Assembly: GCA_009838915.1 (NCBI GenBank)
Contig: VXQT01000010.1
Coordinates: 1-64,000 of the forward strand
DNA: 64,000 bases
Source of the DNA: Chloroflexota bacterium
Lineage (GTDB): Bacteria > Chloroflexota > Dehalococcoidia > Bin125
Direction: 5' to 3'
The position numbers and the translations under genes are program-made. Positions 11,455-58,238 of the stretch are shown one piece after another; position 1 is the first letter of the stretch, and each line of letters opens with the position of its first letter. Under the pieces are notes generated by a model. It was not told the origin of the DNA, made no database searches, and was given only the letters and a program-made list of their open reading frames with translations.

Positions 11455-11507
11455 CCCTCTCCCCCCGCTCCGCGGGGGGAGATGCCGAAGGCAGAGGGGG
11501 GTCGGGG
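11455..11507 (+). repeat. GC-rich palindromic repeat, copy 1
   Basis: The copy has a G/C hairpin (CCCCCCGC..GCGGGGGG) flanked by CTCT and AGAT, then GCCGAAGGCAGAGGGGGG. The same unit occurs, in either orientation, near 29881, 51053, 51926 and 57068. Here it fills much of the 216-base gap between the monooxygenase and the CoA-transferase gene. Confidence 0.8.
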
Positions 11508-29177: not shown

Positions 29178-32100
29178 CTAGTGCCAGTCGTGGGCGCTGG
29201 GCATGCGGATGTCGGCGCCGATCGCGTCGATCCGCTCGGCCACGATGTTGGTTGTCCCGTCCCAGCGGTCGATCCGTCCCTGCAGCAGGATCAGCTGATT
29301 CGAGAGCGCCCGGCGGCACCTGGCGAAGACCTTGGGCCAGACGATCGACTGCACGTCGCCGGTCTCGTCCTCGATTGTGACGAAGACCGTGCCGTCCTGG
29401 CCGCGCGGGTGCTGACGCGCGATCGGCCAGCCGGCGACGCGGATCCGCGCACCGTCCTCGCAGTCGTAGACCGCAGCCGTCGTCAGCACGCCCGTATCCA
29501 GCGTCGGGCGGATGAACTCCATCACGTGGCCTGAGGGATAGATGCCCAGCGTCTTGTACTCGCCGACCATCTTCTCGTAGTCGCTGAAGTCGTCGAAGCG
29601 CGGCGGTGCTTCCGCGCCGTGGACCGGAAAGGCGCGCTGACCCGAACGCGCCGGTCGGATCGACAGCCCCGCCTCCCAGAACGCCTCGCGTCGATTGGGC
29701 GTGACGGCGTCGAACGCCCCTGCCTCGATCAACGATCGCACCGACTGTGGCTTCAGCCCCGTCCGACGGACCAGTTCGCCCGCGTCGGCGTAGGGCCCGC
29801 GCGCCTCGCGCTCTGCAACGATCAGCTTGGCCGACTCGGGTCCGATGTCCTTGATCATGCCCAGGCCGAGACGGGCGGTCTGCCCCCCTCTGCCTTCGGC
29901 ATCTCCCCCCGCGGAGCGGGGGGAGAGGGACGGGGTGGCTACGGCATCGCCACCCGCTCCGGGGGGGGAGAGCGTATCCGGCACCGCTCGCACCTCGCTG
30001 CGGTTGACGCAGGGGTTGAGGAAGTGGACGCCGAACTTGCGGGCGTCCTCTTTCAGCGTCTCGACCGGGTAGAAGCCCATCGGCTGGTTGTTGATCAGCG
30101 TGACGAAGAATTCGAGCGGGTGATAGCGCTTGAGCCAGGCGGCCTGGTAGGCGGTGATCGCGAAGGCATGCGAGTGCGACTCGGGGAACATGTAGTGCCC
30201 GTTGATCTTGCCGAAGATCGTCTCGGCCGCGTCGTCGGGCACGCCGTTGGCCCGGGCGCCCTCGAAGAAGCGTTCGCGGTGCATCGCAATCAGGTGTTCG
30301 TTGTTGGCCCGAGCGAAGGCGCGGCGCACCTCGTCGGCCTCGGCCGCCGACATCCCGGCCACGTCCATGATCAACTGCACCACCTGCTCCTGCCAGACGA
30401 TCACGCCGTAGCCGCGCTCCAGCGCTCGCGCCTCCAGCGGATGGTCGTACTCCCACTCGACGCCGTGGCGGTAGCGGTCGACGAACTGGCTGACCGCGCT
30501 GCCCTGCGTGCCCACCCCGGGCCGAATCAGGGCGACCTGGTAGGCGAGATCGAGCAGCTTGCGCGAGCGCAGCCGCTGACCCATCTTGAGCTGCGCCGGC
30601 GACTGCAGCAGGAAGATGCCCTTCGATTTCCCCGCATTGATCATGTCGTAGACGCCGTCGTCCTCGGGGCTGAGCTGACTCAGGTCGGGACGCTCGCCCG
30701 AGCGCTGCTCGACCAGGTCCAGCGCCTCCTCGAGCTGGTCGAGTACAGGAAGCGAGAGCAGATCGATCTTGGCGAAGTTGGCGTCGGCGACGCTGTCCTT
30801 GTTCCAGTCCATGATGAAGCGGCCGTCCATGGCGCCGGCCCGCACCGGCACCATCTCGGGGATCGGCGAGTCGGAGAGGATCATCCCGCCCACGTGCTGA
30901 CCGAGCCCGCGCGGCGCGTTCATCAGTTGCGGCGCGAGCGCAATCAGGTCGCGCCAGCCGTGCGCCTCGACCCGGTCGCGGAAGGCCGGCAACTGCTCCA
31001 TCTCCTCCCGCAGCCGCGCCCCGTCGTGCGAGTGAATCTGCTTCGACAAGAGGCGCAGGTCGTCCGGCGGCAATCCCAGCGCCTTGCCCAGGTCCTGGAT
31101 GATGCCCTTGACCGAATAGGTCGAGATCGCGCCGGTCAGCACCGCGTAGTCGCGGCCGAAGTATTCGTGCACCCGCTCGATCAACTCGTCGCGCAGCCCG
31201 CGCGGGAAGTCGAGGTCGATGTCCGGCAGCGAGGTCATGTCGTCGGGCAGGAAGCGCTCCAGCGTCAGCTCCCACTTGAGCGGATCGACGTGGCTGATCC
31301 CGATCAGGTAGCCGACCAGCAGCGCCACCGACGATCCGCGTCCGCGGCCCGGCGGACGCTTCTCCAAGGGCGTCTCGGGCTCGGCCAGGCCGCGCTCCTC
31401 CATGATCCGCTGGGCCAGCCGCACGATCTCGCGATAGAGGAGCAGGAAACCGGCCAGCTTATGTCGACCGATCAGGTTGAACTCTTCGTCCAACCGCTGC
31501 CCGACCTCCGGCGTGACCGAGCCGTAGCGCCGCGCCGCGGCCTCCTCGCAGAGACGGCGCAGATAGCTCTCCGGCGTGTAGCCCTCGGGCACGATTGGCT
31601 CGGGCAGCGTGTAGCCGAGGTCGACGCTGAGATTGAAGGCGCACTGCTCGGCGACCCGCCGCGTGTTGCAGACGGCCTCGGGGAACTCCGAGAACAGCTC
31701 CGCCATCTGCGCCGCCGACTTGAGGTGCAGATGGTGATTGGGCTGGATCTGCCGCAGCGCCTGGTCGATGGTCACGTTGCGCTTGGCCGCGACCAGCGCA
31801 TGCTGCAGCCGGTAGCGCTCAGGCGAGTGGTAGTGGACATCGTTGGACGCGACCAGCGGCGCGCCGACCTCACGCGTCAGCCCGACCAGCTCGCGGTTGC
31901 GCTCGGTGTCGCCGCGCAGGAAGTTCTGCTGCAACTCGACGTAGACCGAGTCCGCGCCGTACCAGTCGCGGTAGCGGCCCAGCAGCTCGCGAGCCTCGGC
32001 CCGCTCGCCGGCCAGCGTCAGCCGCGACAGCGCCCCATGCCGCCCGCCGGCCAGCAGCACCAATCCCTCGGCGTGCTCGGACAGATGGGCAGGATCCAGC

Positions 32101-51052: not shown

Positions 51053-51124
51053 TGCCCCCCTCTGCCCCCCGCCTTCGCGGGGGCAGGCTTTCGGCATCTC
51101 CCCCCGCTGCGCGGGGGGAGAGAT
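51053..51124 (-). repeat. GC-rich palindromic repeat, copy 6
   Basis: CCCCCCTCTG then an extra hairpin CCCCCGCCTTCGCGGGGG and CAGGCTTTCGGCATCT, then the main CCCCCCGC..GCGGGGGG hairpin. This copy carries an added internal hairpin. It fills the gap between the DinB and DUF429 genes. Confidence 0.8.
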
Positions 51125-51925: not shown

Positions 51926-51980
51926 GTGCCCCCCTCTGTCGCTCCGCGACATCTCCCCCCGCTGCGCGGGGGGAGAGAAG
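51926..51980 (-). repeat. GC-rich palindromic repeat, copy 7
   Basis: GCCCCCCTCTGTCGCTCCGCGACATCT plus the CCCCCCGC..GCGGGGGG hairpin. The middle CGCTCCGCG replaces the usual CCTTCGG loop. It lies upstream of the DUF429 start. Confidence 0.8.
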
Positions 51981-55989: not shown

Positions 55990-57057
55990 ATGGTCACCGC
56001 CGACAAGCTTGACGAACTGCAGATGGAGCCGGAGGCGCCGGAACTGGACCTCTCCTGGTTGAACCTGGATACGGAGTGGGGTGTCTCGGCTGAACTTGGG
56101 CGCAAGGGGCTGACCCTGCAGCAGATCAACAAGTCGATCTACGGCGAGATTCCGGCCACCTCGGTTGACAGCTCGGCCCGACCGCGCGGCGCCGCGCCGC
56201 CCGAGGGCGCGACCCCGCGCATGACCCCGTGGGTGCTGGGCGACGCGACCGAGACCTTCTCCGACTCGGCCGCGCTGCTCTACGACGAAGCGGTCTCGCG
56301 CCAGTGGTCGTCGGCCACCGACATTCCCTGGGACACGCTGGACGAACTGCCCGAGGACATCGAGCGCGCGATGGTGCAGCTCTGCACTTCGCTGACCGAG
56401 GTCGAGTTCATCGCCGGCGACGTGCCCGGCAAGTGGCTGCCGCGGATTGCGGCCGACCACTATGAGTCGGGCCTCTTCCTGATGTCGCAGGTGATGGACG
56501 AAGCTCGCCACACCGATGTCTTCCGCAAGCGCGCGCTGGCCAACGGCGGCGGCTTGCTGCTGCAGGGCGGCGGCGGCGGGCTGCGTCAGATTCTCGAGGC
56601 CGAGGACTTCACCCAGATGTCCTCAATGCTGCACATTCTCGGCGAGGGCTTTGTCCAGTCGCTGTTCCGCCTGGGCGAGCTGATCGCGCACAACGAGGCC
56701 GAGAAGCGGATCTTCCGCCTGGCCGCGCAGGACGAGTCGCGTCACGTGGCCTACGGCGTCACGCATCTCAAGTACACGCTGGAGCACGAGCCCGAGAAGG
56801 CCGAGGAAGTCCACTGGACGCTCGACATGTTCGAGGACACGCTGGTCGACCCCGACCAGGCCAACCCGGGTCTTGCCGGAGCGCTGGTCTACCTGCTCGG
56901 CGACGGCGACGTCGACGAGGGCTGGCGGCTGTTCTGGCACGTGCGACGCAAGCAGGTGCTCGAGTACCTGCACCGCCTCGACGTGGCCGGCCTCGGCGGC
57001 CGCCTCGAGACCGGGCGTCTGCACCCGGCCCTCGCGGGCGCGCTCGACGAAAACTAG
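55990..57057 (+). CDS. Ferritin-like diiron protein, intact metal ligands
   Basis: This 355-aa ferritin-like fold resembles R2-type or AurF-type diiron oxidases but I do not recognise the family. The ligand set is E137 in TSLTEVEF, E171 and H174 in MDEARHTDVF, E219 in ILGEGF, and E249 and H252 in QDESRHVAYG. A conserved RKRALANGGG follows the second helix. The ATG at 55990 has GGGAG six bases upstream. The paralog at 57144-58238 lies 86 bases downstream in the same direction. It probably binds O2 and oxidises a small substrate. Confidence 0.8.
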   Translation: MVTADKLDELQMEPEAPELDLSWLNLDTEWGVSAELGRKGLTLQQINKSIYGEIPATSVDSSARPRGAAPPEGATPRMTPWVLGDATETFSDSAALLYDEAVSRQWSSATDIPWDTLDELPEDIERAMVQLCTSLTEVEFIAGDVPGKWLPRIAADHYESGLFLMSQVMDEARHTDVFRKRALANGGGLLLQGGGGGLRQILEAEDFTQMSSMLHILGEGFVQSLFRLGELIAHNEAEKRIFRLAAQDESRHVAYGVTHLKYTLEHEPEKAEEVHWTLDMFEDTLVDPDQANPGLAGALVYLLGDGDVDEGWRLFWHVRRKQVLEYLHRLDVAGLGGRLETGRLHPALAGALDEN

Positions 57058-57067
57058 TTCATCGGTT

Positions 57068-57118
57068 CCCTCTCCCCCCGCTCTGCGGGGGGAGATGCCG
57101 GAGGCAGAGGGGGGTCCG
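57068..57118 (+). repeat. GC-rich palindromic repeat, copy 8
   Basis: CCTCTCCCCCCGCTCTGCGG then GGGGAGATGCCGGAGGCAGAGGGGGGTCC, very close to copy 1. It occupies the gap between the two ferritin-like genes. Confidence 0.82.
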
Positions 57119-57143
57119 AGGGGACTCGCCGAGGAGCATCATC

Positions 57144-58238
57144 ATGCCCGACAACGACGTGATCGCCGCCGCGAAGGAACGGCTTGAGCAGTCGGGGTTG
57201 CCCTCGACCTGGCTCGACATTCCCGTGCACTGGGGGGTCAAGGCGAAAGAGCAGGCGACGCCGGAGAACGGCGGCCTGCGCTTCCAGATGCTCAATGTCG
57301 ATGTTTATGGCGAAGTCCCCGACGTCTGGGAGAACAACACCGAGATCCCGCGCGGCGCGGTGCCGGACACGCGCACCGAGCAGATGGGCTACTCGATCTT
57401 CAACAAGGCCGAGGTCTGGTCCGATCTTTGCGCCGAGCTCTATGAGGACGCCATCGCCGACCGTTGGAACTCGTCCGCCGACATCCCCTGGGACTCGCTG
57501 GAGCCGATCGGGGCTGACCTGGAACGCGCCGTCTGCCAGATTGCGACGATGATGTCGGAGTACGGTTGGACCAAGGCACAGACCACCGGCCGCTGGCTGC
57601 AGGAGATTTCCTACGGCTACATCGAGGTCAAGCTGTTCCTGGGCACCGTGGTCTTCGACGCGGCGCGGCTGTTCGAGGTCTGGCGCAAGCGCGCGCTGGC
57701 CAACGGCGGCGGCATGGGCCGCGGCGGACGCAACTGGAAGTTCCTGCCGCTGACCCAGAGCTACACGTTCTCGGAGTTCGTGGTCGCCTCGATCATGCAC
57801 GACTCGATGCTGCTCACGCTGCTGCGGCACGGCGAGCAGCTCGCCCAGACCGAGGCCGAGCGCCAAATCTATCGGCTCTGCGAGCAGGACATCGAGCGCC
57901 ACCTGGCGTACTTCGTCGATCACATGCGCTACCTGATGCTCAAGGAGCCGGTGCGCCGCGAGGAAATCCACCGCTACATGAACAAGGCCGAGTGGTACCT
58001 GGCCAAGGATGGCGACGACACGCTCTACAGCGCGCTCGCCGTGATCATGGGCGACGGCCGCGAAGGCGCAGAGGAAGCAATGGCCGATGTCGCCGAGCTG
58101 CGCCGCGAGCAGATCGAGACGTATCTCGGATATCTGAGGCAGTGCCACCTCGCCGATCGCGAGGATCGGCTGAACGAAGAGCTGCGCAAGTGGGCCGGGA
58201 TGGTCGAGCTGGAGGAAGAGGAGAAGATCCCGGTCTAG
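57144..58238 (+). CDS. Ferritin-like paralog with degenerate diiron site
   Basis: This 364-aa homolog of the preceding protein shares the segments SADIPWDSLE and WRKRALANGGG with it. Several metal ligands are lost: the E/H pair of DEARH becomes FDAARL (Ala173, Leu176), the E of QDESRH becomes Ile250 (H253 kept), and E219 becomes Asp220 in MHDS. It should not hold a normal diiron centre. The C-terminus is longer and rich in Glu (VELEEEEKIPV). It is probably a non-catalytic partner subunit; that is inference. Confidence 0.8.
   Translation: MPDNDVIAAAKERLEQSGLPSTWLDIPVHWGVKAKEQATPENGGLRFQMLNVDVYGEVPDVWENNTEIPRGAVPDTRTEQMGYSIFNKAEVWSDLCAELYEDAIADRWNSSADIPWDSLEPIGADLERAVCQIATMMSEYGWTKAQTTGRWLQEISYGYIEVKLFLGTVVFDAARLFEVWRKRALANGGGMGRGGRNWKFLPLTQSYTFSEFVVASIMHDSMLLTLLRHGEQLAQTEAERQIYRLCEQDIERHLAYFVDHMRYLMLKEPVRREEIHRYMNKAEWYLAKDGDDTLYSALAVIMGDGREGAEEAMADVAELRREQIETYLGYLRQCHLADREDRLNEELRKWAGMVELEEEEKIPV

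Follow-up and report, generated by a model that had tools for sequence, protein, structure and literature searches.

Soluble methane and toluene monooxygenase hydroxylases are built around a helical pair of one live and one dead subunit (alpha and beta), served by a small effector. In the phenylacetyl-CoA epoxidase system PaaA/PaaC/PaaB, the catalytic PaaA is accompanied by PaaC, a protein of the same fold that is thought to be structural, and the small PaaB bridges both (PMC4498308). R2lox has been reported to bind fatty acids and was proposed to be an alkane hydroxylase (PMC10867098). We describe here two adjacent homologous genes, A and B, which together with a small protein, C, would reproduce the Paa anatomy of a catalytic dimetal subunit, a metal-free partner of the same fold and a small protein. 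A/B/C represents an unannotated, widespread candidate oxygenase system in the Dehalococcoidia, including the cultured thermophile Tepidiforma flava. In the open-access literature, SAR202 was not found joined with ferritin-like proteins, nor with monooxygenase and diiron, subscription papers and preprints being outside the scope of that search; the SAR202 and Tepidiforma genome papers that were consulted do not mention ferritin-like proteins, and likewise not diiron where that word was searched.

An intact and a degenerate dimetal-carboxylate homolog lie in tandem

The window, meaning the whole stretch of 64,000 nucleotides of Chloroflexota DNA that was analyzed, contains A and B head to tail on the same strand (35% protein identity, E 5e-55), at the coordinates where an earlier note on this DNA had placed two adjacent homologous reading frames:

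55990-57057, plus strand: gene A, 355 aa, ATG start; predicted catalytic R2-lineage dimetal-carboxylate subunit
Gene A ligands: E139, E171, H174, E219, E249, H252; complete R2-type set E, E-x2-H, E, E-x2-H
57058-57143: A-B spacer, 86 bp; contains a G+C-rich inverted-repeat element (57072-57094)
57144-58238, plus strand: gene B, 364 aa, ATG start; degenerate paralog (pseudo-subunit)

The motifs TEVEF, MDEARH, GEGFVQ and DESRH of the A protein are matched in B by SEYGW, FDAARL, HDSM and DIERH, so that the six ligand positions of window B read G-A-L-D-I-H; four carboxylate ligands and one histidine are replaced, and the histidine of the last E-x2-H is kept. The note had correctly listed FDAARL, the aspartate in the third helix and the isoleucine in the last E-x2-H, but its list was incomplete, omitting the change of the first glutamate to glycine. 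The first-helix ligand of A is the invariant E139, and position 137 varies between E, Q and N. The segment WRKRALANGGG, which had been described as shared, begins with tryptophan only in B; A has FRKRALANGGG, and RKRALANGGG is common to both. The DNA coding for this stretch is the same in A (56524-56553) and B (57686-57715) over about 30 bases, in contrast to the 35% identity of the proteins, which could reflect codon bias or gene conversion.

The short G+C-rich inverted-repeat element (CCCCCCGCTCTGCGGGGGGAG-like) has 11 matches on both strands of the window, where 0.01 would be expected. It occupies five sites (11459-11481, 29903-29970, 51098-51120, 51953-51975 and 57072-57094), the last of which is located between A and B.

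The loss of the metal site in B is a property of the family

The complete diiron-type ligand set that the note had read in the first protein is a constant feature of its relatives, as EEHEEH is found at the six ligand positions in all 99 distinct A proteins. Conversely, none of the 76 distinct B proteins carries a glutamate at any of the four glutamate positions. This count leaves out the B protein of locus L043, which was missed by the simple gene caller; with it included, no B examined retains E139, E219 or E249, and this one alone retains E171. No B regains its ligands, an outcome that would have spoken against a subunit pair. Membership in the R2 lineage of the ferritin-like dimetal-carboxylate superfamily, judged by the four-helix bundle together with the ligands, is accordingly met by A only, and the ligand criterion is not met by B.

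Both genes are under purifying selection, with dN/dS between close relatives of 0.03-0.07 for A and 0.05-0.10 for B. That B is a decaying pseudogene is ruled out by this low ratio and by reading frames that remain intact across the class. A chance motif can likewise be dismissed, given that the ligand split is seen throughout the 99 A and 76 B proteins and that selection on B is purifying.

A and B co-occur in a fixed order across the Dehalococcoidia

Scanning named genomes yielded 472 relatives; the top 80 of them come almost all from Dehalococcoidia/Chloroflexota, including cultured T. flava. The family is present in 96 of 393 sampled genomes of the class Dehalococcoidia (48 of 229 genera) and in all 14 other genomes of the genus from which the window derives. 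The window's own genome has three A-B pairs, in the window, on contig 9 and on contig 38. Outside the class, matches came from four sampled genomes of the phylum; in two of these A and B are adjacent and C is present, and the other two gave nothing beyond a distant or partial match, without C. A plasmid search returned one weak ferritin-like match in Xenorhabdus and no A/B system.

Downstream sequence of 1.5 kb or more was available for 88 distinct A genes. In at least 66 of them B comes next on the same strand, and in none does B lie upstream of A; fewer than 400 bp separate the two genes in 64 of 65 linked pairs. Where the two genes are not linked, as in G018, G019, G035 and G043, both are still present in the genome, on separate contigs. 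A single match occurs only in G049 and G072 (of the 96 class genomes), and in each case the contig ends close by, on the flank where B would be expected. The adjacency and co-occurrence that had been proposed as a check are thus borne out, and A without B, which as the prevailing arrangement would have argued against a pair, was not seen in genomes. In T. flava, a single A-B pair is intact and C occurs once; a second A, beside an intact B, has breaks in its reading frame. In places A is expanded without B, as in an A-A-B-C operon in G088 (L189) and four A matches in G160, so the ratio of A to B is not always 1:1. These expansions hint at different A subunits sharing one B and C.

In a phylogenetic tree, A and B separate with a support of 0.999, except for the divergent G048 lineage, and one old duplication explains both genes. 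Over 63 pairs, the tree distances of A and B correlate with r=0.87, and over 24 non-redundant pairs with r=0.82, which none of 5000 permutations reached; B evolves about twice as fast as A. As the correlation, although it includes paralogous pairs from within genomes, was not corrected for shared species history, it supports contact between the proteins but does not prove it. The proposal that this is a catalytic/degenerate subunit pair of an undescribed family is supported on several counts: the two genes co-occur, their order is fixed, they have evolved in a correlated manner, and every B has lost ligands.

A solitary distant A-type protein with all six ligands is encoded at L193:8917-10086 in genome G468, where B and C were not found; its N-terminus has a TusA-like match below cut-off (E 3e-4).

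A third protein tracks the pair

Protein C, about 145 aa in length, is encoded downstream of B in 22 of 66 A-B loci. In the window's genome it is single and unlinked (G000:C17:1237-1659, L196; 141 aa), so the absence of an effector that had been noted holds for the window but not for the genome if this conserved protein is counted. Across the 393 class genomes, 92 have A/B and C, 4 have A/B only, none has C only and 297 have neither (P 9e-86); by genus, the corresponding numbers are 46/2/0/181 (P 2e-46). Three of the four A/B genomes without a detected C are MAGs of 86-89% completeness. C constitutes a new protein family by itself, whose presence tracks A/B almost perfectly and for which searches of Pfam, NCBIfam and PDB profiles found no convincing family match. 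A resemblance to sterol-carrier-type domains was considered but is unsupported by these searches. C is usually present in one copy per genome, even though A-B pairs number up to three, which leaves it uncertain whether it is a fixed stoichiometric subunit. At four loci (L047, L051, L186, L206), B adjoins C while A is located elsewhere.

Profiles and predicted folds place A and B near VlmB, ADO and R2lox

Pfam and NCBIfam gave no match above cut-off for A, B or C, and PDB searches with single A or B sequences gave no matches. The closest NCBIfam model to A is R2lox, with E 2.6e-6 and 26.9 bits against an equivalog cut-off of 194, which does not meet the criterion. A profile built from 15 A proteins found a VlmB homolog as the best PDB match (E 9e-5), with R2lox at E 5e-4. 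The AlphaFold models have a pLDDT of 68.8 for A, whose model is of low confidence with about the first 90 residues poorly predicted, and of 82.6 for B. For both models, the nearest fold is VlmB, followed by aldehyde-deformylating oxygenase (ADO) and R2lox. Aligned with VlmB (8wvr) by VIA-align, the A model scores Z 23.0 (rmsd 2.8 over 255 residues), from which its scores for ADO and R2lox differ by no more than 1 Z unit (R2lox Z about 22), and the B model scores Z 24.3 (rmsd 2.7 over 253 residues). As the B model still matches VlmB, the dimetal-protein fold has apparently been kept and the site lost.

R2lox and A have the fold and the full ligand set in common; in contrast, A remains below the R2lox cut-off, is accompanied by a dead partner and lacks the Tyr-Val pair of the ether cross-link, the Val72 position being Ala in 98 of 99 A proteins and the Tyr162 position Leu or Met in 96 of 99. 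The position of the R2 radical tyrosine (ligand His + 4) is Phe in 99/99. These positions were placed by their spacing from the ligands, with residue numbers from PMC10867098 and general knowledge. Without the cross-link and radical residues, A is neither a typical R2lox nor a ribonucleotide reductase subunit. The azoxy synthase VlmB, or 'Protein 60' (PDB 8wvr, 6d9f), is the best structural match of both proteins and the best PDB profile match of A; however, A is only 18% identical to it, the organisms differ, and the VlmB records that were consulted describe neither a pseudo-subunit nor a C protein. The AurF N-oxygenase family (PF11583) has no match in P0001, and distant A-type relatives reach 17.1-18.7 bits against a cut-off of 29.6, so that this criterion is not met either.

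With respect to the multicomponent enzymes, the Pfam family PaaA_PaaC has no match to A or B up to E 1, nor to other A members up to E 0.5, and PaaC appears only at rank 42 among the fold matches of B. Unlike in the Paa system, no PaaE-type reductase is linked to A-B, and C has no Pfam match, PaaB included. The soluble methane monooxygenase hydroxylase is also among the fold matches of B, but neither A nor B matches the Pfam bacterial multicomponent monooxygenase hydroxylase family, reductase and effector genes are unlinked, and A and B are shorter (355/364 aa) than the subunits of the soluble methane and toluene enzymes. The combination of a Paa-like anatomy with a sequence and fold nearer to VlmB, ADO and R2lox, together with the failed Paa and BMM tests, points to a new family whose mode of action would resemble that of a multicomponent dimetal oxygenase.

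A further R2-like protein of the same genome (G000:C28:203986-204534; L039:6927-7754), with DEARH and DEVRH motifs, is about 24% identical to A.

A heteromeric oxygenase is the favored interpretation

We propose, with a probability of roughly 0.72, that A and B, together with C, form a heteromeric O2-activating dimetal oxidase or oxygenase of the R2/R2lox/VlmB lineage, the complex itself, the metal, the use of O2 and the role of C all being inferred. A would hold the sole dimetal site (Fe/Fe or Mn/Fe) and perform the chemistry. B would derive from one old duplication of A, having lost the metal ligands and kept the fold, and would most likely pack against A as a structural half or scaffold, as A-B or as a dimer of A-B. 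C would most likely be a shared adaptor or effector.

That the closest folds, R2lox, VlmB and ADO, are not known to be pseudo-subunit heteromers leaves room for A to be a stand-alone homodimeric R2lox/VlmB-like oxidase, with B a co-transcribed but neofunctionalized paralog outside any complex with it, such as a helical protein that binds lipid or CoA. The A genes unlinked to B and the genomes with expanded A are in keeping with this; the invariant A-then-B order, the correlated divergence and the fact that practically all genomes with A also have B, unlinked cases included, make it unlikely. Alternatively, B and C might be assembly or metal-loading factors outside the working enzyme, B a decoy or chaperone paralog and C a maturation protein for all A copies. 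The usual single C, even with three A-B pairs, and the loci where B has remained beside C with A located elsewhere would suit such roles, but B has been duplicated along with A in the window's genome, as better fits a dedicated partner than a general chaperone, and we consider this explanation rather improbable.

Some distant similarity also connects A to the ribonucleotide reductase radical subunit R2, of which B would then be a regulatory homolog: the R2 family PF00268 gives similarity in 9 of 15 A members (best E 4e-4), and R2 folds are among the structure matches of the A model. However, the relatives with scores given reach only 12.9-14.7 bits against a cut-off of 33.6, window A has no match, the radical tyrosine is replaced throughout, no R1 gene adjoins the pair, and genomes have up to three pairs; the chance that this reading is correct is negligible.

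A live/dead dimetal oxygenase may have been invented independently on the R2lox/VlmB branch rather than the BMM/Paa branch, with C shared in trans by several pairs, as a core oxidative system of aerobic Dehalococcoidia that possibly acts on recalcitrant organic matter; we regard this wider proposal as evenly poised. In line with the proposed use of O2, a haem-copper terminal oxidase is found in 94 of 96 A/B genomes versus 222 of 393 overall (P 1e-25), and T. flava is strictly aerobic (PMC10284905). The oxidation of difficult carbon by Dehalococcoidia is a matter of debate, in which flavin monooxygenases have so far been given the credit. The pair also offers a clean case for asking why a dead twin has arisen repeatedly among O2-activating dimetal enzymes: the two proteins share a fold and go back to a single duplication, their relatives number in the hundreds, and orphan arrangements can be compared with linked ones.

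Further genes in the neighborhood of the pair

No reductase or ferredoxin gene consistently linked to A-B was found among the neighbors. In several lineages, a zinc-ribbon protein, D (PF09723), with a conserved LDPKY...MVD C-terminal tail, adjoins C or lies between B and C (L176, L180, L191, L192, L202, L203, L206). The strong form of D (E < 1e-30) occurs in 14 of 294 genomes; each of these also has A/B and C, and D is located beside C. D is a possible rubredoxin-like electron carrier and thus a candidate electron donor, without activity data. As a universal component it was rejected, the strong form being confined to these 14 genomes and generic relatives occurring everywhere.

Recurring neighbors of A-B include CoA-transferases, short-chain dehydrogenases, an enoyl-CoA hydratase and flavin monooxygenases. 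A conserved operon with substrate-specific neighbors was considered; without a background rate for these genomes, no substrate was inferred.

In Tepidiforma-type genomes, a DtxR/IdeR-type metal-dependent repressor with a FeoA domain is encoded a short distance upstream of the pair on the other strand, at L041:4277-4999 and eight related loci, which suggests metal-responsive control.
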